From positions 1-64,000 of the IMG/VR virus record IMGVR_UViG_3300048922_000467: 64,000 nucleotides of DNA; one strand, given 5' to 3'. The position numbers were made by a program, and so were the translations under genes. The notes under the pieces were generated by a model. It was not told the origin of the DNA. It searched no databases and saw only the letters and a program-made list of their open reading frames with translations. Of this stretch, positions 1-53,654 are shown one piece after another. Source of the DNA: a virus. Numbering within the stretch: the first letter of the stretch is position 1; each line of letters opens with the position of its first letter.

Positions 1-795
1 ATGCCTACCATATTTTTGAGTCATAACTATCAAGACAAGCCGGTTGTAGAGCCAGTTGCTGCGGAGCTACGGAGAATCTACGGTCAGGATTCAGTTTTCT
101 ATGACGACTGGTCTATTCAGCCTGGCGACAGCATCATCGGTAAGATGAATGAAGGCCTTGCAGCGCCGGACTTCTTCTTTTTCTTTGTCACTGAAAACAG
201 CTTGAAAAGCGGCATGGTCGAGATGGAGTGGCAGAGCGCTCTATATCAAGCTGCCAAGGGAAAAATCACTTTTGTGCCGGTGCGTGTTGACGGGGCACCA
301 ATGCCAGCAATCGCAGTACATAGACTATTCATCGATATGTACACGAACGGCATTGAGTCAACCATTCAGCAGATCAAAGACCGGATCGCAGGCAAGACAG
401 ATTTCACACCGAAGCACTCGGATTTTTCAAATCTGACATACACGGTTGCGGGCGACCCGAGCAAAGAACTCAAGGTCACAGTAAAAGCGGCCCTGCTGCA
501 GGAGTCCAACCCTAAATTCATGTTCTTGGTCAAAAACGAGATGGATGACGTCTTCGTTTGGATTGAAGGTGCTGCCGGGATTCACTCTGGCCCACACCAG
601 AATGTGGATATTGAGGGCATCGGCAAAGCTGCAGGATTGATAGCCGCACCATTCACTGGGACTATTCGTCCAAATTTCCCTATCACATTCACCATCAAAC
701 CGAAGCCAGGATGCCCGCCTGTGGAGCTGCTGGATGTCCTTCACGAGACTAAGGCTGCTTTCTTCTCGCCGATCCCCCGCACCACCCTGCAGTAA
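1..795 (+). CDS. TIR-domain protein with unknown C-terminal domain
   Basis: Residues 1-130 read as a TIR domain: beta-strand start IFLSHNYQD, a YDDW box, a GDSI loop and an acidic helix SGMVEMEW that holds the likely catalytic glutamate of NADase-type TIRs. Residues 137-264 are a separate, probably beta-rich domain that I do not recognise. TIR enzymes in bacteria cleave NAD+ or make cyclic-ADPR-like signals in anti-phage defence (family knowledge); that role here is inference. The gene faces the prophage tail-tip gene and shares a hairpin terminator with it, a usual site for lysogenic cargo. The ATG is the first base of the window, so a partner gene or longer start upstream cannot be excluded. 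Confidence 0.75.
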   Translation: MPTIFLSHNYQDKPVVEPVAAELRRIYGQDSVFYDDWSIQPGDSIIGKMNEGLAAPDFFFFFVTENSLKSGMVEMEWQSALYQAAKGKITFVPVRVDGAPMPAIAVHRLFIDMYTNGIESTIQQIKDRIAGKTDFTPKHSDFSNLTYTVAGDPSKELKVTVKAALLQESNPKFMFLVKNEMDDVFVWIEGAAGIHSGPHQNVDIEGIGKAAGLIAAPFTGTIRPNFPITFTIKPKPGCPPVELLDVLHETKAAFFSPIPRTTLQ

Positions 796-20119: not shown

Positions 20120-20436
20120 TTGACTGCATGCACCCAGCATTCAGCTGCGTCGGCTCCATCCATCAACCGCACCTGGATTGCTGCCCCACGATCAACGGCG
20201 ATGAACGAGCCTCCGCGAGCGTCCACAGGCGGCGAATCGGTACTGACAACGCCTCCAGCAGCGAAATGAATCAGAGAGTTGCAGAACAGGTACACAGCCT
20301 CTGATTCGCACGGCTCAGTCACCAACACCTCAGACCCCGAAAGCTCTTTCCGCCCCAGCAGCTCTGCCGGAGCAACGATCGGCAGCGGCTCTCTCTCACG
20401 AGTTTGAGCAGTGAACAGCCCTGGGCGCTTACTCAT
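20116..20436 (-). CDS. hypothetical virion-operon protein
   Basis: 106 aa, beta-rich, one run with ARGGSFIAVDRGAAIQVRL. Coupled by overlaps on both sides. No family recognised; position between coat and fibre genes suggests a minor structural protein. Confidence 0.5.
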   Translation of the reverse strand: MSKRPGLFTAQTREREPLPIVAPAELLGRKELSGSEVLVTEPCESEAVYLFCNSLIHFAAGGVVSTDSPPVDARGGSFIAVDRGAAIQVRLMDGADAAECWVHAVK

Positions 20437-20641
20437 CCTCAGTAACCTCTACAGCAGGCTTGCGACCCCGACGCTTCGGCTTTTCAGCTGCAAGCTCAGG
20501 TTCATCAGGAGCAGATCCAGCAGTGCCGCCGACGAACAGATACCCCAGGCCAAGCCAATGAGTTTCGGCTCTCGACCCGGCATCCACGAACACCCTGTGA
20601 TCCCCCAGCTGCAGTGAATTTACCGATACTTCGCGCTTCAT
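20429..20641 (-). CDS. small hypothetical protein with basic tail
   Basis: 70 aa from the ATG at 20641 (TTGAGAAC ribosome site). A beta-rich N-terminal part ends in a KPKRRGRKPAVE stretch. A longer reading from 20680 would run through the parS-like palindrome, but lacks as good a ribosome site. Not recognised. Confidence 0.5.
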   Translation of the reverse strand: MKREVSVNSLQLGDHRVFVDAGSRAETHWLGLGYLFVGGTAGSAPDEPELAAEKPKRRGRKPAVEVTEDE

Positions 20642-20663
20642 TTTTGTTCTCAAAAAAGGGTCG

Positions 20664-20679
20664 TGTTCCACGTGGAACA
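20664..20679. promoter_or_regulatory. perfect parS-like palindrome
   Basis: TGTTCCACGTGGAACA, a perfect 16-bp palindrome matching the ParB-binding parS sequence of Pseudomonas chromosomes. It lies in the gap upstream of a small leftward gene and behind the coat-gene terminator. No parA or parB is seen in the window. Confidence 0.8.
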
Positions 20680-20710
20680 TATTATGGCGAATAGTGCCTA
20701 ACAAACTGAA

Positions 20711-20730
20711 GAAAGGGCCCCGGAGGGCCC
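20711..20730 (-). terminator. rho-independent terminator after the coat gene
   Basis: GGGCCC/GGGCCC stem with a 4-base loop followed on the minus strand by TTTC, just behind the stop of the major capsid gene. Confidence 0.6.
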
Positions 20731-20736
20731 AGTCTG

Positions 20737-21900
20737 TCAGTGGCCACCGAGCCTCAGCGCACGTTCAGGGCTCACGGTTTTCAAGCCGCAGAGGGTTTCA
20801 AATTTCCACTGAGTGGACTCGGTGCGAGGCTCGTACCAGCGAAGCATGCGGAGCGAGATTCCGGTGCGTGGGTCAGTCATCTGCGCAATGTTCACGCCAG
20901 CAGCGTCTTCTGGCACTTCGAGATTGCGGAAGGCGATCAGGAATGCGGACTTGGTGAAGGCCAGGTCGATCGGGTGATCGCCGAGGACGCTGACAGCAGA
21001 GCCAGAGGCGATGGCTTCCAGGACTGCCGGGTAGACTGGGACTGCAGAGCCTGCTGTGTCAGCAGTGACTACGAAAGTCTGATGGCTGCCAGCAACAGAG
21101 ATCACGTCGCCTTTCAGGAATGTCGCACCGTTCACTCCCGCCAGGGCAAGCGTAGTAGAGCCAGCTACTGCCTGTGCAGACAGGGTAATGCCGGCGTTTG
21201 CAGCTGCAGTGCCTGCGACGTGGTACGGAGCTTGAACGTCCGAGTACAGATCGAACCCATACTTGCGACCGATCAGGCCCTGGCTGACCACGTTCGCATC
21301 ACCGCTTTCGTTGATCTTCGAGAACTCAAGCAGCAGGTCAGCTTCAGTGTCCGAGGTCAGGACAATACTGCGACCGTTCAGGATTTTGCGGTTCTGCATT
21401 TCCTTCCGAGCGGCGATCAGATCGGACTTGTCGCGGCCAGCGGTCGAAGCCGGATTGCCCGAGATGTACGGGATGTCCTTGTACAAGCTGAACAGGTTTT
21501 TGTTGACGGTACGGCCAATGGCATCAACAGCAGCGGCAGCAGCAGACGGCAGAGTCAGCGAGTTCGCGTGCGCCAGGAACTCAGCGTCTTTCATCGCGAA
21601 CTGCTTGTACAAGTGCCGATCAAGCTTCACGTCGACTTTGCCGGCAGTGATGTCCTCAGACTGCGAGCCAGCCGAATCAGTTGGATGGTCTTCAGCATCC
21701 GAGAACTCGATCGGCTTTGCGATTCGGATCGTATCACCATGATTTTTTGCCTCATCGGCTGTATCGACGCTGACAAGATGGGGCATCGTCAGCTGGCCGT
21801 ATAGACGATCAATGGCCAGGGGCAGAATCACCTCTGTCATCAGGGCTTCAGTGTCATTGCCGTGGCGTACAAGAGCCAGGAGCGGGAGCATTGCAGTCAT
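20737..21900 (-). CDS. major capsid protein, P22 coat type
   Basis: 387 aa. P22-like HK97-fold coat: N-arm with ALIDRLYGQLT-type helix, GDTIRIAKP strand, a long spine-helix region, and an inserted beta domain near residues 230-285 (AGITLSAQAVAGSTTLALAG... GDVISVAG) like the P22 I-domain. C-terminus has DPRTGISLRMLRWYEP, conserved among these coats. Start ATG behind AGGTGAAGTA. Scaffold gene lies immediately upstream. Confidence 0.85.
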   Translation of the reverse strand: MTAMLPLLALVRHGNDTEALMTEVILPLAIDRLYGQLTMPHLVSVDTADEAKNHGDTIRIAKPIEFSDAEDHPTDSAGSQSEDITAGKVDVKLDRHLYKQFAMKDAEFLAHANSLTLPSAAAAAVDAIGRTVNKNLFSLYKDIPYISGNPASTAGRDKSDLIAARKEMQNRKILNGRSIVLTSDTEADLLLEFSKINESGDANVVSQGLIGRKYGFDLYSDVQAPYHVAGTAAANAGITLSAQAVAGSTTLALAGVNGATFLKGDVISVAGSHQTFVVTADTAGSAVPVYPAVLEAIASGSAVSVLGDHPIDLAFTKSAFLIAFRNLEVPEDAAGVNIAQMTDPRTGISLRMLRWYEPRTESTQWKFETLCGLKTVSPERALRLGGH

Positions 21901-22015: not shown

Positions 22016-22786
22016 TCAGTTGATGACGATCTCGCCTGATGCTCTTTTTGCGAGCAAGGCTTTCTTTTCTTCTGCGCTTGCCGCGATCAAGGTGCGTTGC
22101 CATTCTGCAGTGCTGATGGCTTTTCCCGCTCCTGTGACGCCCCTGGAGCCGGAACCTGGCATTTGCTTGAAGTAGTGCGGTTTCGTTGCTGTGAGCCCGG
22201 AAATCCACTCGTCAGGTGTCAGAGGCCTGCCGTTTTTACCGATGGCGATGTTCCCGCTTGAGTCACGTGCTACGAGCTCCCCGGCGTCATTGAGCTGCCA
22301 AGTGTTGCCGGCAACGGACATCAGATCATCGAGCGCCGAGGGGTGGAAGAATTCATTTTTGAGCGCCACCTGGCCGATGCTTTGCTTGATCTGGAACTGC
22401 TTGAGCTTAAGTCTTTCGCCATCAACAGCTTTGCGAAGATCTTCTTTTTCGGCTTGCTCCGCTGCCAACTTCTCTTGCCAGGTGGCACTGTTGGCGTTGA
22501 CGCGCTTATCGAGCAGTGTTTGCAGATCCAGCTTGCCAGCTTTCAGAGCATCAAGATCGTCCTTCTCCTGAATGCCTGCTTCAAACGCCTTCATCCGCTC
22601 TGCCAAGGTTTTCTTCTCGTTCAGAAGATCGGCGTTTTTACTCTTTAGCGGAGTGACTTCTTTCTCTACGTGAGCTTTTAAGAAGTCTAGGAAGGCAGGG
22701 TTTTCCTGCAGGGCATTGAAGTCCAGTGGCGGAACTTCATCTTCGCCGAAGCGAATAAGGCTTACCAGCTTGTGCATCTGAAACAT
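22016..22786 (-). CDS. capsid scaffolding protein
   Basis: 256 aa, highly charged and helical, with a long coiled coil (residues 35-140), then NEFFHPSALDDLMSVAG and a C-terminal helix-turn region. The composition and place directly before the coat gene are those of phage scaffold/GPO-like proteins. It guides procapsid assembly and is lost on maturation. Confidence 0.8.
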   Translation of the reverse strand: MFQMHKLVSLIRFGEDEVPPLDFNALQENPAFLDFLKAHVEKEVTPLKSKNADLLNEKKTLAERMKAFEAGIQEKDDLDALKAGKLDLQTLLDKRVNANSATWQEKLAAEQAEKEDLRKAVDGERLKLKQFQIKQSIGQVALKNEFFHPSALDDLMSVAGNTWQLNDAGELVARDSSGNIAIGKNGRPLTPDEWISGLTATKPHYFKQMPGSGSRGVTGAGKAISTAEWQRTLIAASAEEKKALLAKRASGEIVIN

Positions 22787-24100: not shown

Positions 24101-24520
24101 ATGCTCACTCAACTCCCACATCTGTCGCTCAGTCAAATCCCGCTCCCCCTGCAGCTCTGCAAGCTCAAGGCCGGCTTTCCATCACCAGCCCTGGACTACG
24201 TCGAAGACAGACTGACGCTGAATGACGTGGTTAAGCTCGATCCCAGGTACTGCTATCTATGCCAAATTGATGGCGATTCCATGATCGACTACGGCATCCA
24301 GCCCGGAGATGTAGCAGTGATCAGCCGCAACGAGCCAGCCAGGCCTGGGAAGATTGTGGTCATCAGCATCGACGGTCAGAACACGCTTAAGCTGCTGTCT
24401 GAAGATGACCAGGGCCCGGTGCTCCTCGCCGGCAACAGCGCTTACAAGCCGATTCGGCCAGGTGACGGTGAGGAGTGGGTATTTCATGGGGTGCTGATCG
24501 CATGCACGCGCCTGTTCTGA
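24101..24520 (+). CDS. umuD: UmuD-like S24 peptidase / translesion polymerase accessory subunit
   Basis: 139 aa. Self-cleavage site AGFPSPA near residue 25, catalytic serine in GDSMIDYGIQPGD, catalytic lysine in NTLKLL, all as in UmuD/RumA. RecA-assisted cleavage yields UmuD', which joins UmuC to form the error-prone polymerase V. LexA box directly upstream, umuC directly downstream with overlap. Plasmids and phages often carry such pairs. Confidence 0.9.
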   Translation: MLTQLPHLSLSQIPLPLQLCKLKAGFPSPALDYVEDRLTLNDVVKLDPRYCYLCQIDGDSMIDYGIQPGDVAVISRNEPARPGKIVVISIDGQNTLKLLSEDDQGPVLLAGNSAYKPIRPGDGEEWVFHGVLIACTRLF

Positions 24521-25812
24521 AGCCAGAATGGCGTCTGAGCGCAAATCAAAAGCGTGTGTACGCCTTGGTCGACTGCAATTCATTCTACGCAAGCTGTGAG
24601 CGGCACCCCCTTTGGCGCCCTGATCTTGCTGGGCTGCCGATAGTGGTGCTGTCGAACAACGATGGTTGCGTGATTGCTCGCTCCAAGGAAGCTAAGACCT
24701 TGGGGTACAAGATGGGTGACCCGTACTTCAAGATCCGCGACCAACTCGCCAACCAGGGCGTCCACGTATTCAGTTCGAACTACACGCTGTATGACGATCT
24801 CAGTAGCCGCGTGATGCTCACCCTGGCCGACTTCGCGAGCGAGCTGGAGGTGTATTCGATTGACGAAATGTTCCTCGATCTGACGGGCATGCGGGGCTAT
24901 CAGGTGATGGCCGAAGAGATGAAGGAGCGCGTGTTTCGATGGACTGGAATTCCCGTTGGCGTTGGGATCTCTACGACCAAGACCCTGGCGAAGCTCTCAA
25001 ACTGGGCTGCGAAAAACTGGAGAGGCCTTCCTGGTGTTGCAGTAGTACTTGACGATCAGCGGCACGAGCTGTTGCTCAAGCGTGCACCAATTGGGGAGGT
25101 TTGGGGGATCGGGCGTCGCTGGGCTGAGAAGCTGGAAGCCAAGGGCATCGTCACAGCCTGGCACTTGGCATGCGCGGACAACGAGGCTGTCGGTAGAGAG
25201 TTCAACGTCGTACTACAGCGGACTGCTCTAGAGCTCCGAGGCATCCCTTGCAATGATCTGGAGCTCCAGGCTCCGAAGAAAAAGCAAATCATCAGCTCAC
25301 GTGCGTTTGGAAGCCGGCAACAGGGGTGGAAACCAATTGAGCAGTCGATTGCCAGCTACGTTGCCCGCGCAGCTGAGAAACTCAGAGCTCAGGGGTCGGT
25401 TTGTCGGAAGATTGATGTTGGTCTCATTGTGAGGAAAGCCACGTCGGAGAGCTTCAGTGATGCGTACTCTTCAGCGACAGCCAGACTTCAGCAGCACACC
25501 GACGACACTCTCACGCTTCAAGGGGCGGCTGTTTCTTTGGCTAAGATAATCTTCGACGACAATGCAGTTTATGCAAAGTCCTCCGTGGCATTGAGCGAGA
25601 TCTGCCAGCCAGAAGACCTCACTACGGACATGTTCGCTGCTGCCAGCTCACAAAGCCCCAGAGCTAAGGTTCTCGATCAGATCAATGCCAAATTTGGCAA
25701 AGGCGCTCTGCGCTCAGCTACGACCATTGGCGACATGCAGTGGAGCATGCAACGTGGGCACCTGAGCCCTTACTACACTACGCGCCTGTCCGACCTGCCG
25801 AAGCTTCGGTAA
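24502..25812 (+). CDS. umuC: UmuC-like Y-family DNA polymerase V subunit
   Basis: 436 aa from the ATG at 24502, which overlaps umuD by 19 bp. Y-family polymerase motifs: ALVDCNSFYASCER with the first metal aspartate, YSIDEMFLDL with the second acidic pair, GVGISTTKTLAKLSNWAAK, then GIGRRWAEKL (helix-hairpin-helix) and a little-finger domain. Full length for UmuC/RumB. Allows synthesis across lesions, and raises mutation rate in stressed lysogens. Confidence 0.93.
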   Translation: MHAPVLKPEWRLSANQKRVYALVDCNSFYASCERHPLWRPDLAGLPIVVLSNNDGCVIARSKEAKTLGYKMGDPYFKIRDQLANQGVHVFSSNYTLYDDLSSRVMLTLADFASELEVYSIDEMFLDLTGMRGYQVMAEEMKERVFRWTGIPVGVGISTTKTLAKLSNWAAKNWRGLPGVAVVLDDQRHELLLKRAPIGEVWGIGRRWAEKLEAKGIVTAWHLACADNEAVGREFNVVLQRTALELRGIPCNDLELQAPKKKQIISSRAFGSRQQGWKPIEQSIASYVARAAEKLRAQGSVCRKIDVGLIVRKATSESFSDAYSSATARLQQHTDDTLTLQGAAVSLAKIIFDDNAVYAKSSVALSEICQPEDLTTDMFAAASSQSPRAKVLDQINAKFGKGALRSATTIGDMQWSMQRGHLSPYYTTRLSDLPKLR

Positions 25813-28099: not shown

Positions 28100-28138
28100 C
28101 TGTCACTATGCAGGTGGAGCAAAAGAGAGCGCAACACT
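28100..28138 (-). promoter_or_regulatory. GTGTTGC/TTTTGCTC leader motif (copy 1)
   Basis: Minus strand: GTGTTGCG-N5-TTTTGCTC, upstream of the cysteine-rich gene. The same arrangement precedes the endonuclease I-like gene (38330-38365), the helicase (40690-40718) and the primase (41054-41078). Confidence 0.5.
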
Positions 28139-28836
28139 TAATATGAGCCTTCTGCGCGCCAATTGAGGAACCGACACACACCCTCTATATCTGGATAAAT
28201 AGACTTTGAGGTAACACCGCAGCGCTCCAGGGTCATCAGGAAATCGACCTTGTCCTTACCCGCAATCACATACTCCTTCAGATACTTTTTGACTTCAGGG
28301 TTTCGTTCCAGGGGGACGAACTTCCCAGACTTTTCAGAAAACCTGTGGGCAGTAAAGTAGCCAGACTGCGCGATAATCCTATCGTTGCTAAGATTTGGGT
28401 TAATCACCCTGGTCTTTCGTTGGCTGAAGGGACTACCTTTGAGTGATGGCAGCATTAGCGAATGAGCTTCTAGTGTGTAGACATAGCAGTCATCCGTTCC
28501 CCTGGAGCTACAAGCAAAGTAGATTGCAGCCAGGGCATTCGAAGTCCAGTCCAACAGCCTGGTTTTCATTCCAAAATGCTGAGCAAGAACGAGCATATCC
28601 CAATCATTGTCAATGTCGACATAGCTGGGAATCATCGTCAGCCCGTGCCGCCTCAGATCAGCCAACATCGTTTTTTCGACTGCGGTTGTGTTGTTGGTGG
28701 GATCTTTCCGTGCGATACCAGGAAGCAGGTTGCCGCGTTTTGACTGCCCGCGAAACAGCACAGTCCCGCCCACCAGGTCATAACCGCTTAGACGATTGAG
28801 GAAATCCGGAACGTCCTTGATCGGAATTGAAGTCAT
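28138..28836 (-). CDS. FRG-domain protein
   Basis: 232 aa. FRG motifs are clear: VLFRGQ near residue 27, then VLAQHFGMKTRLLDWTSN followed by ALAAIYFACS at residues 82-110. FRG proteins are widespread in phages and islands and are suspected toxins or nucleic-acid-acting enzymes; their chemistry is not established. It begins 2 bp after the MvaT-like gene stop, so both come from one transcript. Confidence 0.85.
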   Translation of the reverse strand: MTSIPIKDVPDFLNRLSGYDLVGGTVLFRGQSKRGNLLPGIARKDPTNNTTAVEKTMLADLRRHGLTMIPSYVDIDNDWDMLVLAQHFGMKTRLLDWTSNALAAIYFACSSRGTDDCYVYTLEAHSLMLPSLKGSPFSQRKTRVINPNLSNDRIIAQSGYFTAHRFSEKSGKFVPLERNPEVKKYLKEYVIAGKDKVDFLMTLERCGVTSKSIYPDIEGVCRFLNWRAEGSY

Positions 28837-28838
28837 GA

Positions 28839-29219
28839 TTACGCCTGCAGCCAGCTTTCGACTTCCTGAGCCCCATGCTCCAATTTCCAGGCCTTCAAGG
28901 TGCTGTGATTACCGCCTTTCGTTTCGACGACTTCGTTTGTGTGCGGGTTCACATAGCGTTTAACTGCACGAGGCGCACGCGGCCCCTTACGCCCATCAAC
29001 CTTGCCACCCGCTGCAACCACAGAAGCCCCAGCAGCCTTGGGATCGAGGATGGCAATAACGTTGCGCAGAGACATGCCGTACTCCGCCAGCAGCTTGCGC
29101 AGTTTGTCTTCAAATTCCAGCTCCCTCTGCAGGGCTTCGCTGCCTTTGAGAGCTTCCAGGGCCTGAAGCTGTTCGGCGATCTGGCGCTCTAGGGCTCTGT
29201 ATTCTGCGGCTTTTGACAT
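28839..29219 (-). CDS. MvaT/MvaU-family H-NS-like protein
   Basis: 126 aa. N-terminal coiled coil (residues 1-60) with LEFEDKLRKLLAEYGMSLRNVIAILDP as in MvaT, a basic linker GRKGPRAPRAVKRY and the C-terminal DNA-binding block NPHTNEVVETKGGNHSTLKAWK. Pseudomonas MvaT proteins bind AT-rich DNA and silence acquired genes. A prophage copy could silence the prophage or poison host MvaT by mixed oligomers (inference). Strong promoter directly upstream. Confidence 0.93.
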   Translation of the reverse strand: MSKAAEYRALERQIAEQLQALEALKGSEALQRELEFEDKLRKLLAEYGMSLRNVIAILDPKAAGASVVAAGGKVDGRKGPRAPRAVKRYVNPHTNEVVETKGGNHSTLKAWKLEHGAQEVESWLQA

Positions 29220-33204: not shown

Positions 33205-34533
33205 TCAGGCAGCGACGTACTCAGTGGCCAGCCTGTCCGCGTTGTCTTCGATACTGAAGTCGTTGCCCATGATCCCACGGCGCTTGAGCTCGCGAAGGTA
33301 CTCGTATTGGCTCAGGTCGCCGTTGGCCCTGGCGGTAGCAAGCGCGGTGAGCTCCTGGGCATTGGCGTTGATGCCGTAGTCAGTGTTGATGTCCACCTGG
33401 AAATCAGCGTTCGACACACGGCTGAAACGGGCGAGCATTCCGAACACAGTCTTGAGGGCAGACGCTGTGGCCGTGGCCATCGAAGCAATCTGGTTGTTGG
33501 TGTCCGAGGCGTTTAGAGAACGGCCAGTCGCTGTTTCGACCACACCAGTGTTTTGGAGCATCTCGTTGCCATGTGACGCCATCAGCACCTCCAAGTCTTG
33601 AAGGCTGTCCCTGCCGGCAGTGATCGCAGCGCCCGTGTGCTCAACAAACTTGAGATCTGCACCCTCGGCACTGCACATGATCGCGCTATCGACACCGATC
33701 TTGACGACTGTGCCCTCAGGAATTCCTTTGCCGAACAGGATTGGCACCCTGGCAACGTGCAGGATGTTGTCCTGGTCGGACTGGGACTGCCAGTGCTTGA
33801 TGTTCATGTGCGCCAGATCCTTGAGCGGAGGCTCGCAGAACAATGTGCCCCTGGTATCAGCTGGGTTTGAGTGAATCGCCACCACCGGAATCTCCGAGAG
33901 CCCGAAATCCCTCCAGGCCTCGATCTGCACGTAGTCGGCACCGTCAGACTCTTGCCAGATTGCCCACAGCACTTTGCCGTTGACCTTCCTGAACACGCGC
34001 ACCCGGCAGACCGTTTTCTCGCCCCACTCACCATCCTCGACGGTTGCCTTCTCCGAAATCCTGATCTCACGCAACTTATCATCCTCGTCGAGCTTGTAGC
34101 CCAGGATGTCATCACCGCTGAGCCAGTAGGCATAGGGCTGCCCGCCGCCGATAGGTGCATCAACACAGAGGAAGGACGACCCGTTCCACAGCGCATCCTG
34201 GAACGCCATCGCCGCCAGCGCACTCACCGAAGTCCCTTTACCGTCGATGTTGCTGCTGAACAGCTCTGCCAGCTCAGGGTGAGATTCCGAAACCACAGCT
34301 ACAGGTCTTGAGAAAGGCTTTGCAGACAAACTCTTTACGACCCTGGCCATGCGGTTGTTCAGGTACGTCCTGCATAGCCGTTTTTTGTACGACTCCGGGG
34401 TCTCGCCTGGCTCGTGCGGGAGAAATTCCTGGCCAGCAGCGCGCATTGCATCAGTGCCGCCCCGGAGTGCTCGGATGGCCCTGCGATCTGAGAAGTATTT
34501 GGAGCAGATTTCGGACTTGTCTTGTACTTTCAC
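33205..34533 (-). CDS. portal protein (DUF4055 type)
   Basis: 442 aa with a GTG start. Portal signatures: [59 protein letters not shown] and [18 protein letters not shown], as in DUF4055 phage portals. Forms the dodecameric DNA gate of the capsid. The large terminase gene lies 30 bp upstream in the transcript. Confidence 0.85.
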
Positions 34534-34563: not shown

Positions 34564-36081
34564 TTAACCCATTATCCCATGAGAGACAGTGGTAACTGGG
34601 CGCTTCCAGGTCAGGCGATATGCCAGCGCATCCCATGCATGATCGTCAGGCCCTTTGGCCACGGCATCGAGTTGATCGTCGTCACGCTGCAGGAATGGCA
34701 GGGTCTTAATCAGGAATTTCGCAGCAGGGAAAAAGTATATGTGAGGGTTGGATGGATCTTGTACCTTGGTGGCCTGCAGCCGCCCAAACATGAGCTGCGC
34801 AGAGGTCACACGGGAGCCGGGAGACTTGTCAGAGTTCACAAAGTCGATGCCCTCAGCCTTCAAGTCCTTGGCCACTGTGGGTGCATTTCCCTGATCGACC
34901 TTTGAGCCGTTGTAGATCTGATTATCTGCTGGCCCTGGAGCGACTTTTTTGTGAGCACTCAACACCCCAGTCAGCAGCTTTTCCTCTTTCTGTTTGAGGC
35001 GTGCCCCGATCTGGCGAGCAGAGAGGAATAACCCAGCATCCGGGCGTGCCTGCTTGCCAGTTTTGGGATCGATTTCGGTGCCGTAATCCTCGCCAATCAC
35101 AACCAGGCTGCCCTTCGGAGGACAGAATTCACGATTCCCCACTCGCACAGATTCCCCGTTACTCTCGGCAACCCAGAGACAACAAAAGGGGGTGCTCTGC
35201 CCAAAGTCGAAGCACCGATCGACCTTCCAGTCAACAGGGATCTGGAACGGATCAAGCAGCAGGTTTTGAGACCAAACGGGGCCAAACATCGCTCCTGTAT
35301 CGACGGCTTCCCAGTCGCCCTCCAACCATGCAGCCCTTTTGGCCGGATCGGTGAGCTGGGCCAGGTAGTTTCGGATGTAGCCGTCGTCGATGTAGTGATT
35401 CTGAAAGATGGTGCCGAACAGTGCTGTGCGTTGCCTGGTGCCATCGGCGTTGTATGTGATCTCGCCGGGCTTGCGCCCCTCAATGAAGCGCTCATACACC
35501 CAGGTTCTGCCGGCGCCCCAGGGGTTTGTGGTGCTGCGGACTTGCAGAGGTGGCGGGAGTGGTTGTGATGGGGTCGGTTGATACGCAGTACGGAGCGTCG
35601 ACATCATTGCTTCGTAGACTTCGATCGTTGACCACGTTGCCAATTCGTCAAAGCCGATGAAGGCGTACTGGTGACCGTGGAATTTGCCGTCGTACTCCCG
35701 GACGTGTTTGATGTGATTGAAGATCAGCACCTCGCCCGTGGGGAAAGTCCATGAGTGCTTGGTCTCGTTCCATACGGCACCAGGGAAGATCCTGGGAATG
35801 AGCATGCCTGCAGTCTTCACCAGGTCAGCAAGGTGCTTGAACTCTTTCCGCAAGATGATCCCGCGCCAGTACGCACCCCAACCTTTTCCCACGTGCTGCA
35901 GGAACGCCATGATGAGTGCATCAGATTTGCCATTGCCCCTAGAGCCATGGAACAGCACTTCCCGAGTGAGGTACTGAGGCTGACCCAGCACAAGGAACAT
36001 CGACTGCGACCCAGGCAAGGGCTTCCATATGATGTTCTGCACAGCACGTGCAAGCGGACGGATCGCCTGGAAAGCACTCAT
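34564..36081 (-). CDS. terminase large subunit
   Basis: 505 aa from the ATG at 36081. ATPase Walker A-like LFHGSRGNGKSDALIM, Walker B-like YAFIGFDELATW, adenine region ILRKEFKHL, and nuclease acidic residues in CFDFGQSTPFCCLWV and HAWDALAYRLTW. It packages DNA through the portal. A longer ORF upstream is a shadow of the previous gene. Overlaps the cysteine-peptidase-like gene by 4 bp. Confidence 0.92.
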   Translation of the reverse strand: MSAFQAIRPLARAVQNIIWKPLPGSQSMFLVLGQPQYLTREVLFHGSRGNGKSDALIMAFLQHVGKGWGAYWRGIILRKEFKHLADLVKTAGMLIPRIFPGAVWNETKHSWTFPTGEVLIFNHIKHVREYDGKFHGHQYAFIGFDELATWSTIEVYEAMMSTLRTAYQPTPSQPLPPPLQVRSTTNPWGAGRTWVYERFIEGRKPGEITYNADGTRQRTALFGTIFQNHYIDDGYIRNYLAQLTDPAKRAAWLEGDWEAVDTGAMFGPVWSQNLLLDPFQIPVDWKVDRCFDFGQSTPFCCLWVAESNGESVRVGNREFCPPKGSLVVIGEDYGTEIDPKTGKQARPDAGLFLSARQIGARLKQKEEKLLTGVLSAHKKVAPGPADNQIYNGSKVDQGNAPTVAKDLKAEGIDFVNSDKSPGSRVTSAQLMFGRLQATKVQDPSNPHIYFFPAAKFLIKTLPFLQRDDDQLDAVAKGPDDHAWDALAYRLTWKRPVTTVSHGIMG

Positions 36082-36515
36082 GCCCTGAAGCCCGCTTCGC
36101 GGTTTGCGCACAAGCCGTTTTTGCTTACAAACACAGCTTCGAGAACCACCATTTCGTGAAGCTTGCGGGGCTGCTGGGATTTGGGGTCTGGGTCGTGTGC
36201 CTGGTGACCGTCCCAGTACACTGCATGCAGGTTGTAGCCGCTGCGGGAGAGGATCGTCAGGATTGCGGGACGGTCTCGGACAACGTCGATGCTGCAGGGG
36301 TTGCCGGTGGTTTGGAGGTGTTGGTAGAAATCTGGAAAGGTTGCGTAGACCGGGCTCAGGCCAAGGCTCAGCAGGGCGTTGCAGGTGTCCGCTGCTGTTG
36401 TGCCACGCAGGTCTGCCTGGGGCCCAAAGCACTGCTGGGCTTGTTCGTAGGTGAGACCGAGTGCATTCGCCAGGCTGGCAATTCCGCAGTCAGTCAGAGT
36501 CCGTTGGGTGATCAT
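36078..36515 (-). CDS. C39-like cysteine-peptidase-fold protein
   Basis: 145 aa from the ATG at 36515. DCGIASLANALGLTYEQA has the catalytic-Cys helix of papain-like/C39 proteins, and LHAVYWDGHQAHDPDPKS the His strand and Asp. It overlaps both terminase genes, an unusual companion for packaging genes. No signal or transporter domain is present. It may process a virion protein or be a cell-wall enzyme; both are inference. Confidence 0.65.
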   Translation of the reverse strand: MITQRTLTDCGIASLANALGLTYEQAQQCFGPQADLRGTTAADTCNALLSLGLSPVYATFPDFYQHLQTTGNPCSIDVVRDRPAILTILSRSGYNLHAVYWDGHQAHDPDPKSQQPRKLHEMVVLEAVFVSKNGLCANREAGFRA

Positions 36516-38445: not shown

Positions 38446-40635
38446 TTAAAGCCCGGTATACCCCTGCATCTGCTCAAGCGACTTCGGATCGATCACATAG
38501 TAATAGCCAGACTTACCGCCGTCCTTCCGCTTTGTTTTCAAACCATGCAGTGACATGATTTCGGAGATTGCCCCTTGTTTGCTTCGGTCAGAGACTGAAC
38601 CTGTGTTCTTGGGCATTTTGAATCCAGCCAGGATTGCTTCGTGCCTGACCGCATTGATTCGATCGTAGAGAGCTACTGAGTCGGCTGGAGTCCAGTTGTC
38701 GTTGAGGAGGCCATTGTGCAACTCCTGGACGAGCTTTTCGAAGGTGGTTGATGGCTCGACGAATAGCTTGCGATAGTTGTCCAGCTTCACCTGCCCGACG
38801 CCTTCACCCCAAAACTGTGCGTCGTGGAAAGTCAGCTCCTTTCGCTTCAGGCCTTGCTGAGCCTGGTATCGGATTGCGGCAAAGTGTTCAGCTTCGCTGC
38901 TGGAGCCGATCTTCTGTGTGCGCTTGGCCTGGGCTTCAGTTGCAGCGGTAGCGTTCAGAAGGGTCAGCGCGGTGTCCTTCTTCACTGCTCTGCGACCGGC
39001 GCTGTTCGCTTTGAAGCCCTCAATGCCAAGGTCGTTATCGCTCGGGATCATTTCCAGCTTGAATCCCTGGCGTTTCAGCTCATACGGCAGGGTTAGCTGG
39101 ATGTTGTCCCGGAGCCAGCCGGTGCGCTTCATGTGATCCTTCCGAGCACCATCGAAGGCGGACTTGGCTGAGGCCTCGAACTCGACGTCAGCAATCTCCT
39201 CGCGCTTGTTTTGCGGGTTGCGAAGGCCGATCACGAACTCATTCGCAGTGCGGTCACGGCGCATCATCTGGATTGCGGAGCGGGGAGTCACAGAGCCCTC
39301 AAACAAGCCGTAATGCGCCTGGAAGTGACCGCTGGTGATGCTCAGGGCCGAGGTTATTGCAGGTGAGTAAATCACTACCTGGTGGGCCGTGGTATTGGGA
39401 TTGCTGATGAAGGCTGCTTGGGCTGGCCAACCTGCGGATTTGCTGGTGATGACCAATGGGGCGATGCCAGCCTTTTCCAGGACTTTGCCCAGGGCCTCGG
39501 CGTCCCTGGCGATGTCGATTGCGATCAGGGTGTTCTGGCCTGCATGGGCTGCAGAGAGGGCCATGGCACGCACCTGGTCGAGAGCGCCTACTTTGCAGTT
39601 GACGTCAGTGTGGGCCTGATCGATCTCGAAGCAGTGAATGAATTCCTTGCCTTTTTTGATCAAGGCGAGGCATTCGTCGTTGACGTCAGCGTCCGCGAAG
39701 ACAACTGATTTCGCGTTGTGTACGACCTGCTTGAGGGTGTTCCAGACGACTTCGCGCTGCTGGACAGACCCTTCAAACACGTGATCGAGCACCTGAGCGG
39801 CCTCATCAATCACCACCAGATCAACGGCTTTGATGAAGTCGTCAAATTTCGCGCTGATGAGTGAGTTGACAACCACCTTGAGTCCACGGGTTTTCTGCAT
39901 CTGGCCTGGCTGTACGTCTTCGTAGTCAACGAGACCTGGGATGTCGATGCCCTTGACGATCGAGCGGCGATGGGAAATCACGAGAACCTTCTTGCCGGCG
40001 TCCAGGAAGTCGGAGATGCAAGGGTTGATGACGAGGGAGCTTTTACCCCACCCAGTCGGGCATTTGATCAGTGCGCGACGGTCGCAACGAAGGAGAACCG
40101 AGCGGAGCCAGGACGTGGAAACTGGCTTATGGACTACAGGGAAGTCATGGCTATCGCTTTTTGAATCGAAGAACGCCTGAACGCGAAGTGTTTTATCGGC
40201 GATGGCCATTGCGCATTCAGTCTCACCTTTTCCAGACACCAAGGCCAGGCGCTGAGCGGCGACTGCTTTGTTTCCGGCAATATATGTATCCCTAGCCAAT
40301 TCGTAAGCTGCTTTACTGAAATTGCCTTCAGTCATCTCGTTTTTGAGCACGAGCAGCGCAACGTCAGACTTGTTCAGTTGATAGACGTTATCTGTGATTT
40401 TCCCAGAGAGGGGATCGTAAAGGCCTGACGCGGTTTTAAATGCTGCTTCAACTGCTTTGCTTGCAGAGTTGGAGATGCTCACCAGTCTTTTAAGGCTTGG
40501 ATATTCGCTCTTAATGTACTGCGTGGAATCTGTGAGGTCATCAGCTGCAACGGTTTGGAAGCCATTGACAGGAAAATCCATGCCGATAATGACCGTATTG
40601 CCAGCGCCAGTGATGTTTTGTTCGACCTGATGCAT
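38446..40635 (-). CDS. origin-binding-type SF2 replicative helicase
   Basis: 729 aa from the ATG at 40635 (AGAGAGAAATTGAA site). Walker A KCPTGWGKSSLV, VISHRRSIV (motif Ia), Walker B VVIDEAAQVLDH, VVFADADVND (motif III) and a C-terminal helicase part with AIQMMRRDRT (motif VI). The layout fits Herpes_ori_bp/CyRepA1-like replication helicases. Together with the AEP primase across the divergent promoter region it forms the replication module. The longer ORF upstream runs through the duplicated promoter. Confidence 0.8.
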   Translation of the reverse strand: MHQVEQNITGAGNTVIIGMDFPVNGFQTVAADDLTDSTQYIKSEYPSLKRLVSISNSASKAVEAAFKTASGLYDPLSGKITDNVYQLNKSDVALLVLKNEMTEGNFSKAAYELARDTYIAGNKAVAAQRLALVSGKGETECAMAIADKTLRVQAFFDSKSDSHDFPVVHKPVSTSWLRSVLLRCDRRALIKCPTGWGKSSLVINPCISDFLDAGKKVLVISHRRSIVKGIDIPGLVDYEDVQPGQMQKTRGLKVVVNSLISAKFDDFIKAVDLVVIDEAAQVLDHVFEGSVQQREVVWNTLKQVVHNAKSVVFADADVNDECLALIKKGKEFIHCFEIDQAHTDVNCKVGALDQVRAMALSAAHAGQNTLIAIDIARDAEALGKVLEKAGIAPLVITSKSAGWPAQAAFISNPNTTAHQVVIYSPAITSALSITSGHFQAHYGLFEGSVTPRSAIQMMRRDRTANEFVIGLRNPQNKREEIADVEFEASAKSAFDGARKDHMKRTGWLRDNIQLTLPYELKRQGFKLEMIPSDNDLGIEGFKANSAGRRAVKKDTALTLLNATAATEAQAKRTQKIGSSSEAEHFAAIRYQAQQGLKRKELTFHDAQFWGEGVGQVKLDNYRKLFVEPSTTFEKLVQELHNGLLNDNWTPADSVALYDRINAVRHEAILAGFKMPKNTGSVSDRSKQGAISEIMSLHGLKTKRKDGGKSGYYYVIDPKSLEQMQGYTGL

Positions 40636-40652
40636 TTCAATTTCTCTCTGTA

Positions 40653-40718
40653 TTGTTGTCGTGCTCTCTTGCACATTTATAGTGTTATCCATGAGCAAAA
40701 GACCATGCAACACCTTTT
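40653..40718 (-). promoter_or_regulatory. helicase promoter, arm 1 of an inverted duplicated promoter
   Basis: 34 bp (40653-40686) are identical, in inverted orientation, to 41083-41116 and carry CACTATAAATG as -10. A GTGTTGC/TTTTGCTC motif (40690-40718) lies upstream of it. So helicase and primase use the same promoter and leader in opposite directions. Confidence 0.75.
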
Positions 40719-40853
40719 GGGGTTGACACTTGGGTATGTTGAGGTATGCAAGTAACGCTGGGTTGATTGGGGGCTATTGAGGTAACGCCCGGTTGATTTC
40801 GGTTGCGCGAGAATGCTGTTCGAGAGCAGGGCGTAACGCAGCGTTGTGATTTT

Positions 40854-41002
40854 AGTTTTTCTTAACCAAGAGACTTGACCTGCCTACTGGCTCGGGTTTT
40901 CATAAACTCATCACAAAGCATCTGCACCCTCAACCGCCCCTTTCTTTTATAAAAGGAGAGACCCGTTGCAGGCGAGGTAGTTTTCTTTGGTTAAGAGAAA
41001 CG
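40854..41002. repeat. nested-palindrome intergenic element, copy B
   Basis: Arms AGTTTTTCTTAACCAA (40854-40869) and TTGGTTAAGAGAAACG (40987-41002) as in copy A; inner core ACCCTCAACC ... TTCTTTTATAAAAGGAGAGACCCGTTG similarly arranged, though the ACCCTCAAC stem is less perfect. Located between divergent replication genes, where an origin is likely. Confidence 0.75.
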
Positions 41003-41018
41003 GAAGTAGATTTCCTTT

Positions 41019-41046
41019 TGTATACCTCGACTCCAAAAATTGACAA
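41019..41046 (-). promoter_or_regulatory. sigma70-like promoter of the TATAC family, upstream of element B
   Basis: Minus strand: -35 TTGTCA, 16-bp spacer ending GAGG, -10 TATACA. A transcript would start near 41012 and run straight through element B toward the helicase. Confidence 0.55.
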
Positions 41047-41051
41047 GCGAA

Positions 41052-41116
41052 AAAGGTGTTGCGCAGGCTTTTACTCATATTCAACACTATAAATGTGCAA
41101 GAGAGCACGACAACAA
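41052..41116 (+). promoter_or_regulatory. primase promoter, arm 2 of the inverted duplicated promoter
   Basis: GTGTTGCGCAGGCTTTTACTCA, then CACTATAAATG (-10 TATAAA at 41088-41093). Mirrors 40653-40718. Confidence 0.75.
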
Positions 41117-41133
41117 GAAGAGAGAGCATCACA

Positions 41134-42414
41134 ATGAAATTCGGCATTCAGTACTCAGCAGCTACTCGACAAGTGAAGAACTGTCAGGCGGCAAGTTTCA
41201 GAGAGTTTTACGATAACGTCTTGCAAGCCGAGAGCGTTGTCGAAGAGAAAAGCGGTCGCACTTTTACGCCCGCGATCTTCAGACATCCTGAGCGATTGAT
41301 CGAACACACGATGGAGCTATCGATGATCGTGTTGGACGTAGATCAGAAGCCCCATGACGACATTATCACCCTGGAAGAGATGGAAGACGCCCTGATCGAC
41401 ATGAACTTCGAGCACTGCATTTATACATCACACAGCAACACTGTCGACTGCCCGCGCTTCCGCGTTGTAATGCCCCTAGACACCCCAATACAACCCGAGG
41501 CATTGCCGGCAGTAGCAGCTGCGGTTATCGAATGCCTAGACGGATTCTTCGATGGCCGACTGATCAAGGTTCTCGATCGCTGCTGGCAAGAAGTATCCCG
41601 CTGCTACTTCACTTTTATGTCACACCCCGATCGTCGAAGCGCAGCCATGAGCTTTTATAACCCCGGCAAGCCGCTGTGCTCCCTGGATCTAAAACTCGCT
41701 CAAAGCAGCTATGGCCTCGACGTCGAATCCTCTACCCCCGGCAAGCCCCGCAAGCCAGGCACCGCTGTAGGCGCAGCAGGCCGTAGCTTCGAGCTCAATC
41801 GCATCCTGGGTGGCCTGTTCCGCTCAGCCTGCGAAGATCAGATTGTCCAAAAAATCCTGGAGGTCGACCAGGAACAGAATCCAGGCAGTGAATACTTCCG
41901 GGATCAAAGCTACGCCCGTCACAAACCGCGCCCTGGCGAAACCAAAGACGCAGCAGCCCTGCGCGCCTGCAAAGCCTGGGTCAGATCCCACTTGAACTGG
42001 CTGCGCCGAAAAGCCAAGGGCATCGACACCACGGTCGTGAACCGAAAGGCTCAGTCCAAAGAGCCAATGCCTACCCACGAAGCCATGATCCGCTTGAAAG
42101 ACTTTAAGCCCGGCAAGACCAAGGCAGGCGGCGAAACAGCCCTGGCCGAATTCGAAATCGTGTCTGGTGAGCACGCTGGCCGTCACGTCTGGCACCGGTT
42201 TTACGGCCAGGGTAACCACCCAACAGCGATCAAGATCTCCAACGAAATGATCGAAAAATTCAAGACCGCCGCCAGTCTTCCAACAGCCAGCTTCGACGAT
42301 GCTTTGAAAGCAAAAGGCGTGATCGTCCACGCCCGGATCAAGCTAAAGGCAGGGACTGGGGGATTCCCTGATCAAAACGAAATCGGGACGTTCTTCACTC
42401 AACCTGTGTCGTGA
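41134..42414 (+). CDS. AEP-type primase with DUF669-like C-terminus
   Basis: 426 aa from the ATG at 41134 (AGAGAGAGC site). Primase-type motifs: SMIVLDVDQKP (DxD), HCIYTSHSN (sxH) and CPRFRVVMPL. C-terminal residues about 330-420, KDFKPGKTKAGGETALAEF then EHAGRHVWHRFYGQGN, resemble DUF669, an SSB-like domain of phage replication proteins. A fused primase and single-strand-binding module would suit priming next to the helicase. The middle part (residues 215-320) is a helical linker. Confidence 0.75.
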   Translation: MKFGIQYSAATRQVKNCQAASFREFYDNVLQAESVVEEKSGRTFTPAIFRHPERLIEHTMELSMIVLDVDQKPHDDIITLEEMEDALIDMNFEHCIYTSHSNTVDCPRFRVVMPLDTPIQPEALPAVAAAVIECLDGFFDGRLIKVLDRCWQEVSRCYFTFMSHPDRRSAAMSFYNPGKPLCSLDLKLAQSSYGLDVESSTPGKPRKPGTAVGAAGRSFELNRILGGLFRSACEDQIVQKILEVDQEQNPGSEYFRDQSYARHKPRPGETKDAAALRACKAWVRSHLNWLRRKAKGIDTTVVNRKAQSKEPMPTHEAMIRLKDFKPGKTKAGGETALAEFEIVSGEHAGRHVWHRFYGQGNHPTAIKISNEMIEKFKTAASLPTASFDDALKAKGVIVHARIKLKAGTGGFPDQNEIGTFFTQPVS

Positions 42415-46393: not shown

Positions 46394-46684
46394 ATGAATG
46401 CGTGTGTGAGGGTCGAAGACATTGAGGTAGCCATTGACAGGGCAGCTGCAGAGCGCGAGCGTGCGAGGCTGGCTGAGTCGCTGGGCTATTGGACAGAGAG
46501 CCAGGTTGCGATGCTGGCGGGCGTTAAAAAGTCGACGCTAGAGTCCTGGAGGAAGCGAGCGAAAGGGCCCGACTCTATTCTCTTCGGAAACGAGCCCCTT
46601 TACTCGATTGCAGACGTTAAAGGCTATTTCGACAGCCTTGCTCAAGCCAAATCAGACCGTAGTCACATCCGAGCCGCGTTGTGA
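46394..46684 (+). CDS. excisionase-like HTH protein
   Basis: 96 aa from the ATG at 46394. GYWTESQVAMLAGVKKSTLESWRKRAKGPDSILFGNEPLYSIADVKGYFDSL is a MerR/AlpA-like winged helix. It converges with the integrase and overlaps its 3' end by 33 bp, a usual place for an excisionase. Confidence 0.75.
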   Translation: MNACVRVEDIEVAIDRAAAERERARLAESLGYWTESQVAMLAGVKKSTLESWRKRAKGPDSILFGNEPLYSIADVKGYFDSLAQAKSDRSHIRAAL

Positions 46685-47743
46685 ACGATCCTCGCTTGCA
46701 CGGCGAAGAGCTTTCCTCCGCTCCTGCAGGTGGACTGACTCGGGATTGATGTGTGTATATCGACGCAGAGTCTTCCAATCTTTATGGCCAGTGAAAAGCG
46801 CTACGGATTCGATATCAAGCTCGCGGGCAAACAGATCTGTCGTTGCTGTGTGCCTCAGGTCATGAAAACGCAGATCCTCGATACCAAGGGCTTGGCAAGC
46901 CCTGGTAAACGAAGCACTCACTGAACGATGGTTGTAAGGGAAGAGCTGACCTCGCCTCCTGCTTCCCATGGCTTTGAGAATCGGCTCCACAAAGTCATCA
47001 AGAATCGGAACAACGCTGTGGTTGCCCTTCTTGTCAGTGGGGTGCTTTCTATCTCTTACCACCATCACGCGACGTTCTAAGTCGACATCCTCAATACTCA
47101 GCGCACAGATTTCTTCCTGGCGCAGCGAAGTTAGAGTTGCGAACTCCATGACAGCAATCATATCAATCTGAGCGCGTTGCATTTTCCTGTAGTGTCCAGC
47201 CAGCTTCTCGATTTCCTCTGGTGAAGCGACTCTCGTTCGCTCTGTCGATCGAACCCTCAATCCCCTCTGTTTCAATGACCTTTTAACATCAACAGTGATA
47301 TCCGGGTTGACGTTCAACTTGCGAACATAGCGAGCCCAACTTAAGACCGTCCGGAGATAGGCTAGGTCGATGCTGATTGTCACTCCGCCAGCGCCATCCT
47401 TTACGCGTCTGTCGACGAAATCACGTACGATGGCCTCTGACAGAGATCTCAGCTTCACATGACCAATCTTGCGCTTGAATGACTTCAGCACAGCGGCCTT
47501 GTTCTTGCCGAAAGGCTTCACTCCACCAACATCTTCTTCGTACCGGACAATCAGATCCTCCAGATTTGCGTCCTTGTGTGGATCTATGTACTCGCCCGTG
47601 CTGGAGAGCTTGAGCTGCTGCTCGATCTCTTTCGCCCACTTCCTGGCGGTTTTTTCGAGATCGAAGGTCTGTGCCCTGTAGAATCCTCCAATCCTGACCT
47701 GAGCGCGGGTCTTGCCCGAAGGGAGTCGTGTAAATGTCGCCAT
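46652..47743 (-). CDS. int: tyrosine recombinase, phage integrase
   Basis: 363 aa from the ATG at 47743. Arm-binding N-terminus (TFTRLPSGKTRAQVRIGG), SAM-like core-binding domain (residues 55-140), catalytic set R in TSLRQEEI, H-x-x-R in HDLRHTA, H in TGHKDW, and Tyr in LRRYTHI. It integrates and excises the prophage together with the excisionase-like protein. The start chosen avoids reading through the repeat at 47747. Confidence 0.92.
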   Translation of the reverse strand: MATFTRLPSGKTRAQVRIGGFYRAQTFDLEKTARKWAKEIEQQLKLSSTGEYIDPHKDANLEDLIVRYEEDVGGVKPFGKNKAAVLKSFKRKIGHVKLRSLSEAIVRDFVDRRVKDGAGGVTISIDLAYLRTVLSWARYVRKLNVNPDITVDVKRSLKQRGLRVRSTERTRVASPEEIEKLAGHYRKMQRAQIDMIAVMEFATLTSLRQEEICALSIEDVDLERRVMVVRDRKHPTDKKGNHSVVPILDDFVEPILKAMGSRRRGQLFPYNHRSVSASFTRACQALGIEDLRFHDLRHTATTDLFARELDIESVALFTGHKDWKTLRRYTHINPESVHLQERRKALRRASEDRSQRGSDVTTV

Positions 47744-47746
47744 GCC

Positions 47747-47832
47747 CGTGTGCACCCCGTGTGCAAAATCGTCTAGACATATTATGGACACTATTTAGAC
47801 CGTTCAAGCCCTTCGTGTGCACCCCGTGTGCA
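47747..47832. repeat. 19-bp direct repeats upstream of int, probable arm sites
   Basis: CGTGTGCACCCCGTGTGCA at 47747-47765 and 47814-47832, each itself two GTGTGCA boxes. Between them is CATATTATGGACACTATTTA, the shared promoter motif. Placement next to int fits integrase arm-type sites, with the attachment core nearby. Confidence 0.65.
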
Positions 47833-48501
47833 CCAGCTGCACAAATCACGGTAAAATAACTCAATTTGAATTGCAAAATATCCTTATGAATCAACAAGTT
47901 ATGTCGCGCAAATTTTCCGTTGCGCCGATGATGGATCGGGTCGATCAAAAATGATGAACCATTAGATACTGGGTATTGGGGAGACCTGGTGTTTTGCTGT
48001 AGCAAAATCTCAGCAAATTTGAAAAGGTGATTTCGTAAATTATCAAGCAGAAGTGCTATCCCAGGCCGACATTGCGAGTACTCCTTCAGGCACAACTCGT
48101 CAGCTCGTTCTTAGTGATCCCGGATTGAATCCTTACTGTACACAAATACAGTATTAGCTGGGCCTCATCATGGACACCGACATACCCGGCTTCGAGCTTA
48201 GTAATGCCGATCCTCAATAAACTGCTTCAGTAGCAGAGCCACCTGCGCTGCATTTTTAGCTCTCAAGTTTCGACTTTTGAGAGATTCCTACACATGTAAA
48301 CGCGCGAACGGATGGCTAAACTTAATATTTAAAGTAAGCGATCACCAAGGCAAAATAAAAAATTTTTGTGTACTTGGCTAGCGCCGACTATACTATCTAG
48401 AGTATATCGCGCCAGAAGCAATAACTAAGAATTAACCCCAGAACCCACAGATTCTTTCTTATGATAATCCAGCATCGAACCTAAGAATTAGAGGCAGTGA
48501 A
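47833..48501. other. prophage right boundary region, no clear gene
   Basis: No convincing gene. It contains the consensus LexA box at 48134, an inverted repeat CTCTCAA...TTGAGAG (48261-48284), a TATACT/AGTATA dyad near 48390, and A/T-rich tracts. An attachment site is expected here, but the other end of the prophage is outside the window, so no att repeat can be shown. Confidence 0.5.
48134..48153. promoter_or_regulatory. consensus LexA box without clear target
   Basis: TACTGTACACAAATACAGTA, a CTG-N10-CAG dyad. A -35 TTGAAT precedes it on the plus strand. Only a 16-codon reading follows before a stop at 48222. Confidence 0.8.
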
Positions 48502-49302
48502 ATGTACCTTGTGAAAAGCTGCGAAAGACAACACAACATAAAAAATTGCAACACCATTATGCTTGGAAGCCTTTACTACTATAGAGCCATAGAAAACCCA
48601 GAAATAGCTGATAAAGATGAAGGAAAAGCCACCTACGAGATTGAAATTACCGGCCCTGCAATTATAAAGAAGAAGTGGCTGAATGTAATTTTGCAGGGGA
48701 TATTCTCGATAGATGAAGGCGCTGAAGAGACTCAGATTGCTCATGGGTTATTAAAACCCACCATCCACAAATATCAGTCCACCGGAGAAGGAAAAGACAA
48801 CGTACGAATCGAAAAGCTTCACGCAACAATTGAAAGAGATTCTTTCAATGAATTCATATATTGCATGTCCCTATTCGAAACACCGCCCCGAGACCCTAAA
48901 ATATTTTCAGGATACGATGACTATTGGACAGTGGAATTAAAACACGCCGATGCTATTGGCGGCATCATAGCGAGATTGATTGGCAAAGCCATAGTGGAAG
49001 GGCGCGACTCAGGAAAACACGTAATTGACCCTTTGATTGATCTCGAAACCGTCGACTGCTTATTCAGGTGTGATAGCGTTATGTACACATCGAGAAAGCT
49101 CGAAATAAATGAAGCAAATAATATCGAAGCAGAAGAATTCTTAAGCAAAATCGAAGACATTGCCTTTATTAAACCAAAAAAATTTGAATCCGAAAATGAA
49201 TTTCGCTTTAGCTTTATTATCTGCTCGGGCAACCGAATACTAGAGATTATGCCAGAACACTTAATACTTGACTCAACCGAGATCAGAAAACTAATCATCT
49301 GA
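48502..49302 (+). CDS. hypothetical AT-rich orphan gene
   Basis: 266 aa behind AGAGGCAGTGAA. N-terminal LGSLYYYRAIENPEIADKDEG is reminiscent of DUF2971-like proteins, but the rest is unassigned. AT-rich codon use differs strongly from the tailocin genes to the right, a sign of recent transfer. Function unknown. Confidence 0.6.
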   Translation: MYLVKSCERQHNIKNCNTIMLGSLYYYRAIENPEIADKDEGKATYEIEITGPAIIKKKWLNVILQGIFSIDEGAEETQIAHGLLKPTIHKYQSTGEGKDNVRIEKLHATIERDSFNEFIYCMSLFETPPRDPKIFSGYDDYWTVELKHADAIGGIIARLIGKAIVEGRDSGKHVIDPLIDLETVDCLFRCDSVMYTSRKLEINEANNIEAEEFLSKIEDIAFIKPKKFESENEFRFSFIICSGNRILEIMPEHLILDSTEIRKLII

Positions 49303-49494
49303 AACCTTAGCTTTTGACATTTAGGAACTTTTCGATACGTATTATGAGTATGAGCCATACCATAGGTATTTTCACTCATACAGCACAACAATATTACACA
49401 ATCATGCATTTAAATTAGCACGAGCCAAATGACCTAATTTCTCACCACAACGAGCCTATGATTAATTCATTAATCGACTACAGGAAATTAATAG

Positions 49495-50340: not shown

Positions 50341-50390
50341 ACGGATAATTCACACGAACAATAAACCCTTTAAAAATCATTAACACCTGT

Positions 50391-51478: not shown

Positions 51479-51511
51479 CTTGCTTCTCCAGATAGGGGGC
51501 ATGGCCCCGCG

Positions 51512-52558: not shown

Positions 52559-52574
52559 GTGAGACTCCAGAAAC

Positions 52575-52596: not shown

Positions 52597-52618
52597 GTTC
52601 GTGACGCGTAACGCTGCT

Positions 52619-53645: not shown

Positions 53646-53654
53646 AGCGGTTCC

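Follow-up and report, generated by a model that had tools for sequence, protein, structure and literature searches.

Why does a prophage of Pseudomonas carry, between two of its own genes, a perfect copy of the site by which its host's partition protein ParB recognises the chromosome? The locus lies in the window, a 64,000-nucleotide stretch of DNA that forms the initial 64 kb of an 86,453-base IMG/VR virus record (IMGVR_UViG_3300048922_000467). The exact 16-bp palindrome TGTTCCACGTGGAACA occupies positions 20664–20679 (no strand assigned) and is identical, letter for letter, to parS2/parS3 of P. aeruginosa PAO1, the sites of highest ParB affinity in that strain, for which an intact CACGTG core is important (PMC4368675). 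The window site conforms to the chromosomal-type parS definition, the 16-bp palindrome TGTTYCACGTGRAACA, and is the sole match at up to three mismatches in the window and at up to one mismatch in the entire record. Markov models of orders 1–3 predict 0.6–1.3e-5 exact copies in 64 kb, i.e., about 1e-5, and the half-site GTTCCAC shows no enrichment in the window (5 observed vs. 8 expected). The initial annotation had proposed a full host-type parS whose exact match was improbable by chance, and both points are confirmed.

The element, a tailed prophage, has genes for scaffold, portal, terminase, tape measure, and tail proteins. The head scaffolding protein of the head module (22016–22786), portal protein (33205–34533), terminase large subunit (34564–36432), and tyrosine integrase (46652–47791) are all encoded on the minus strand, and similarity to a related P. 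salomonii prophage stops at approximately 47936. The parS site is intergenic. In minus-strand order, the major head protein gene (PHROG 283, P22-coat-like; 20737–21900) is followed by an intrinsic terminator hairpin, GGGCCCTCCGGGGCCC and then TTTCTT (20715–20730), by parS, by GAGAAC (20646–20651), and by an ORF of 70 aa that belongs to no known family (20429–20641). The alignment identifies GAGAAC, kept in most relatives, as the likely ribosome binding site of this ORF, which is found directly downstream of parS in all close relatives.

Several other features of the record were observed. Candidate defence or accessory genes encode a TIR-domain protein at the prophage edge (1–795, plus strand) and an FRG-domain protein inside it (28138–28836, minus strand). 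An MvaT-type xenogeneic silencer (PF22055) is encoded at 28839–29219 (minus strand), and a UmuDC-like pair, S24 peptidase and Y-family polymerase, is located on the plus strand (24101–25812) amid minus-strand phage genes. The replication protein (38446–40713, minus strand) has distant similarity to RepA of the linear plasmid phages N15, phiHAP-1, and VP882, and occurs here in an integrase-bearing element. Its ORF and a divergent one (41056–42414, plus strand) have near-identical N-terminal peptides (NTINVQESTTT), and an apparent inverted repeat (40630–41130) surrounds their shared upstream region. Directly after the prophage, a second element with contractile-tail genes covers 48500–64000, and another integrase, 34% identical, is encoded near the record end (L141:11425–12402), which suggests tandem integration.

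Conservation of the site was examined in 12 related loci having capsid proteins 66–98% identical to that of the window, including loci from P. fluorescens H24, P. salomonii, and P. fuscovaginae. All 12 have an exact or near-exact parS at the same spot: it is exact in L122, L123, L125, L130, and L133, takes the form TGTTTCACGTGGAACA or TGTTCCACGTGAAACA in five loci, and carries ...AACG in two. These variants all retain the CACGTG core, and TGTTTCACGTGGAACA and TGTTCCACGTGAAACA are also found as sites in Pseudomonas genomes. Since some relatives are apparently the same strain under two names, identities were calculated for 10 distinct sequences, window included. Pairwise identity is 94% over the site, with 13 of 16 columns invariant, but only 60 and 58% in the non-coding flanks, and the highest other non-coding block of 16 columns reaches 77%. 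The site is thus better conserved than its surroundings, and it is retained even in relatives in which the terminator hairpin has been swapped for other sequence. Absence from relatives, which the initial annotation had named as evidence against its reading, was not encountered, as all 12 carry parS there. More distant capsid homologues (30–39%) have no parS within 1.5 kb, and no DNA-level relatives of the window were found among GenBank phages.

The ParB_N domain (PF02195) was not found in the record itself, in nine relatives, or in 17 parS-bearing records of cultured phages, and the ParA-type AAA_31 domain, searched with the model PF13614, was not found in 20 records including the window's own and relatives. 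The prophage had been described from the outset as devoid of parA and parB, and this description is borne out by the record and the nine relatives. A phage-encoded ParABS module is rejected on the same grounds, neither PF02195 nor PF13614 having been found in the record or relatives.

In the hosts, TGTTYCACGTGRAACA was present in all 120 Pseudomonas genomes sampled, mostly as a single copy, and the reversed control pattern occurred in none. Chromosomal sites checked in gyrB/recF vary in the same manner as the phage sites. Two Pseudomonas genomes have TGTTTCACGTGGAACA (L234:4454 and L236:7526) without the gyrB/recF origin genes as neighbours, and one of these sites adjoins an HTH gene among small ORFs. 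The chromosomal neighbourhoods of two relatives differ, one being tal-rssB-queF, which the related P. salomonii prophage adjoins, and the other tRNA-Leu/Cys. We take tal-rssB-queF, by synteny with the PAO1 gene order, to lie approximately opposite oriC, and on that assumption the idea that the site is not oriC-proximal would be right in outline. P. aeruginosa parS is functional only within approximately 650 kb around oriC, while ParB binding is independent of chromosomal location (PMC5098823). Segregation of the lysogen chromosome is therefore an unlikely benefit of the site, given this limit, the presumed position of tal-rssB-queF, and the existence of virulent carriers.

Among 2.9 million viral contigs, the parS palindrome occurs in at least 120, and in the same 2.9 million the reversed palindrome was found 0 times and a core-swapped control (CAGCTG) 54 times. 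According to a crude ORF caller, 59 of 127 parS sites among the matches listed are non-coding or at gene edges, vs. 2 of 54 control sites. The form TGTTTCACGTGAAACA was found in at least 120 contigs vs. 33 control contigs, with 73 of 145 sites among the matches listed classed as non-coding by the same caller, vs. 1 of 33. Fisher tests of the non-coding excess give 1e-9 and 8e-8, values that overstate the significance because the contigs are partly related and not independent; one similarity cluster alone takes in 33 of 120 contigs among the matches listed. ParB_N was detected in 1 of 50 parS-bearing contigs vs. 4 of 50 control contigs, and a resident ParB gene is therefore rejected as the cause of parS in viral contigs. 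Three viral contigs (L105, L278, and L305) were seen to have five exact palindromes each.

The site also occurs in two marine families. In the PHROG 38 terminase family, parS with 0–1 mismatch is located at most 250 bp upstream of the gene in 32 of 77 members, and the nearest match in the other relatives has at least four mismatches. The palindrome arms in this family are always symmetric (39 T/A, 14 C/G, 0 mixed), where independence would give 20.6 mixed arms. Matched arms of this kind point to recognition by a symmetric dimer, with shared ancestry as a caveat. In the PHROG 371 capsid family, 17 of 79 members have a site immediately 3' of the capsid stop codon, and these sites (among loci L495–L574) mostly have CACATG or CATGTG cores instead of CACGTG, perhaps matched to ParB of their hosts. 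The PHROG 371 capsid gene is unrelated to that of the window, so the post-capsid position is common to unrelated phages; it is perhaps shared only because a non-coding gap exists there. Carriage of approximately 40% in the terminase family and 20% in the PHROG 371 family indicates that parS is dispensable.

Cultured phages were represented by 50,697 GenBank phage records, searched with the palindrome plus one flanking A/T. Two parS palindromes were found in 41 and 198 records, and their core-swapped controls in 0 and 5. Pseudomonas phage carriers span several unrelated lineages, and orphan parS sites are present in virulent ones, namely in the KPP25 group and, at 1–3 per genome, in Otagovirus and XD2/KoPa-4 relatives. 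Kochitakasuvirus KPP25, phiR18, CRPAP1904, and R4900a have a terminator and parS immediately 5' of the capsid gene. XD2 and Ep020 have three sites apiece, the KoPa-4 group two plus one parS1-type site, psageK4 and Lana one each, and phiPsa267 and phiPsa374 have parS in both terminal repeats; some Pseudomonas phages also have the parS1/parS4 form TGTTCCACGTGGAACC. The 17 parS-bearing records without ParB_N (0/17) include KPP25/phiR18, XD2, Ep020, the KoPa-4 group, phiPsa267/374, Lana, and others. The largest named host groups in the second search were Microbacterium, Listeria, Gordonia, Arthrobacter, Bacillus, and Lactobacillus. parS is intergenic in each of the four carriers that were inspected (Butyrivibrio phage Arian, Gordonia phage Woes, DSS3P8, and vB_BcoS-136). 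Ten Klebsiella records belong mostly to one large-phage family and match in coding or unannotated sequence, and no parS was found in the cultured relatives HTVC023P/027P, CRP-901, GB2A, Pag-Yong1, and DSL-LC04. The initial annotation had treated the site as a property of the prophage. The part that stands is the presence of parS in a prophage without parA/parB; a peculiarity of prophage folding is too narrow a reading, because virulent phages and phages of other ParB-bearing hosts carry orphan parS as well.

The palindrome is probably a working orphan parS, a putative loading site for host ParB in a phage without ParB and ParA. Host ParB is the obvious reader, since the sequence is the host's, its variation is host-like, no phage ParB is detectable, and the hosts use parS; on these sequence comparisons, binding of host ParB to the phage site is very likely. 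It is established that parS loads CTP-bound ParB clamps, which slide away from it, and clamp loading and spreading on phage DNA would, given binding, be likely in turn. Dimers of host ParB would bind parS, form closed CTP clamps, and move by sliding onto the adjacent phage DNA, and a phage genome loaded in this way would resemble a centromere to the host ParA and SMC machinery. The main benefit may be hitch-hiking, i.e., use of ParB, ParA, and SMC to position and organise phage DNA inside the cell, which would serve an excised, replicating temperate genome and also virulent phages with the same site. This proposal is tentative, ranked first and followed by a ParB sink and then by local silencing, and it is the weakest step of the mechanism, as partition brings little to a lytic infection, which is soon over. 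The chances are even that such centromere piracy is a general, convergent strategy, shared by temperate and virulent phages that are unrelated and whose hosts have ParB. Orphan parS sites would then be acquired and maintained for placing ParB-CTP clamps on viral DNA, and the payoff would be either host-powered positioning and organisation or the draining of the host centromere.

The site could instead act as a ParB sink, in which replicating phage genomes, with 1–5 parS each, outnumber the few host sites and strip the centromere of ParB. During infection this would disturb the host's segregation, its loading of SMC, and the control of genes that depend on ParB. The presence of sites in virulent phages is consistent with this, as are multiple sites in some genomes (three in XD2/Ep020, several in the KoPa-4 group, five in some contigs) and a genome position that varies between late operon, terminal repeat, and the region before terL, since only copy number would matter to a sink. 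Most carriers, however, have a single site, although more sites would make a better sink, and placement is constant within the window family. P. aeruginosa is moreover viable without ParB (PMC5521831), which makes the benefit doubtful. Both the sink and its proposed effects on the host are rather unlikely.

Slightly less probable is a local silencer or insulator, by which ParB spreads from parS over the late genes (capsid, 70-aa ORF, and tail) and holds down their expression in the lysogen. In a variant of this explanation, ParB would limit read-through past the capsid terminator. Induction and the rise in copy number would relieve the effect. ParB at native level in P. aeruginosa represses promoters adjoining the intergenic parS3/parS4 (PMC5521831), which is a direct precedent, the prophage also encodes its MvaT-type silencer, and parS is 3' of a terminator in the window, the KPP25 group, and several marine phages. 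Terminator-like hairpins occur within 60 bp of 9 of 46 intergenic parS sites vs. 17 of 450 random intergenic positions, a weak association that would suit this explanation; the terminators may, however, merely mark larger gaps. It also accords poorly with the lack of a consensus sigma-70 promoter around the window site and of any excess of -10-like boxes next to intergenic parS (43/96 vs. 400/915), and virulent phages would not be served by silencing of late genes.

An operator for another phage or host regulator, only coincidentally similar to parS, is improbable. Any dimer-binding site may resemble this palindrome, and in some phages of the terL family the distance between a parS-like site and the gene downstream is similar. 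On the other hand, these 16 bp recur, varying only as parS does, in phages of Pseudomonas, Microbacterium, Gordonia, Listeria, Bacillus, Lactobacillus, and Ruegeria. We know of no regulator common to the parS-bearing phages of these hosts, while chromosomal ParB is common to the hosts themselves. The Klebsiella phage matches, being in coding or unannotated sequence, also argue against an operator, and promoters are not enriched at the sites; a promoter operator is rejected, there being no consensus promoter at 20500–20900 and no -10 enrichment over the 96 sites. Chance or reading-frame constraint is hardly credible and is already contradicted for the window family, for although about half of the viral-contig matches fall within predicted ORFs, possibly by accident, control palindromes are rare, about 1e-5 copies are expected in the window, the site is kept while its flanks drift, and the reading frame is not conserved, the supposed 'MFHVEH' leader being rejected as a coding origin with its frame closed or out of frame in 7 of 10 relatives.

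The closest known system is the Pseudomonas chromosomal ParABS, which has the same 16 bp in PAO1 parS2/parS3. Chromosomal parS sites cluster at oriC, whereas phage parS sites are intergenic in phage DNA, without adjoining parAB, and are carried by virulent phages too. The phage-plasmids P1 (parABS) and N15 (sopABC) similarly have a cis-acting centromere on phage DNA; they encode their own ParA and ParB and use their own centromeres, as known phage partition systems in general supply these proteins themselves. In contrast to P1 and N15, no ParA or ParB domain was found in the record and its relatives, and the centromere sequence is the host's. The silencing at parS3/parS4 resembles the present arrangement in having an intergenic parS next to potentially ParB-repressible genes, but it concerns host genes near oriC (PMC5521831), and in the window the genes are phage late genes and the repression is putative. 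In engineered lambda-parS phages imaged with CFP-ParB, phage DNA is loaded with ParB and still replicates (PMC13190303). These phages likewise have a parS and no parB of their own, but they are laboratory constructs with ParB deliberately supplied, whereas the window site is natural. No description of a natural host-type parS in phages was found in the open literature, preprints and subscription journals lying outside this scope. The site is of a known kind and its existence as an orphan in phages appears new, and its recurrence between genes in many unrelated phages suggests common exploitation of host ParB.

The finding has practical consequences, as a prophage parS can confound both oriC placement by parS consensus and ParB ChIP-seq in lysogens, and the CACGTG core offers a simple handle for tests in cultured phages, KPP25, Gordonia phage Woes, and DSS3P8 among them. 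If the proposal is true, it would represent a new point at which viruses meet the chromosome-segregation machinery of bacteria, and would predict visible ParB foci on infecting DNA and a possible cost to host segregation.
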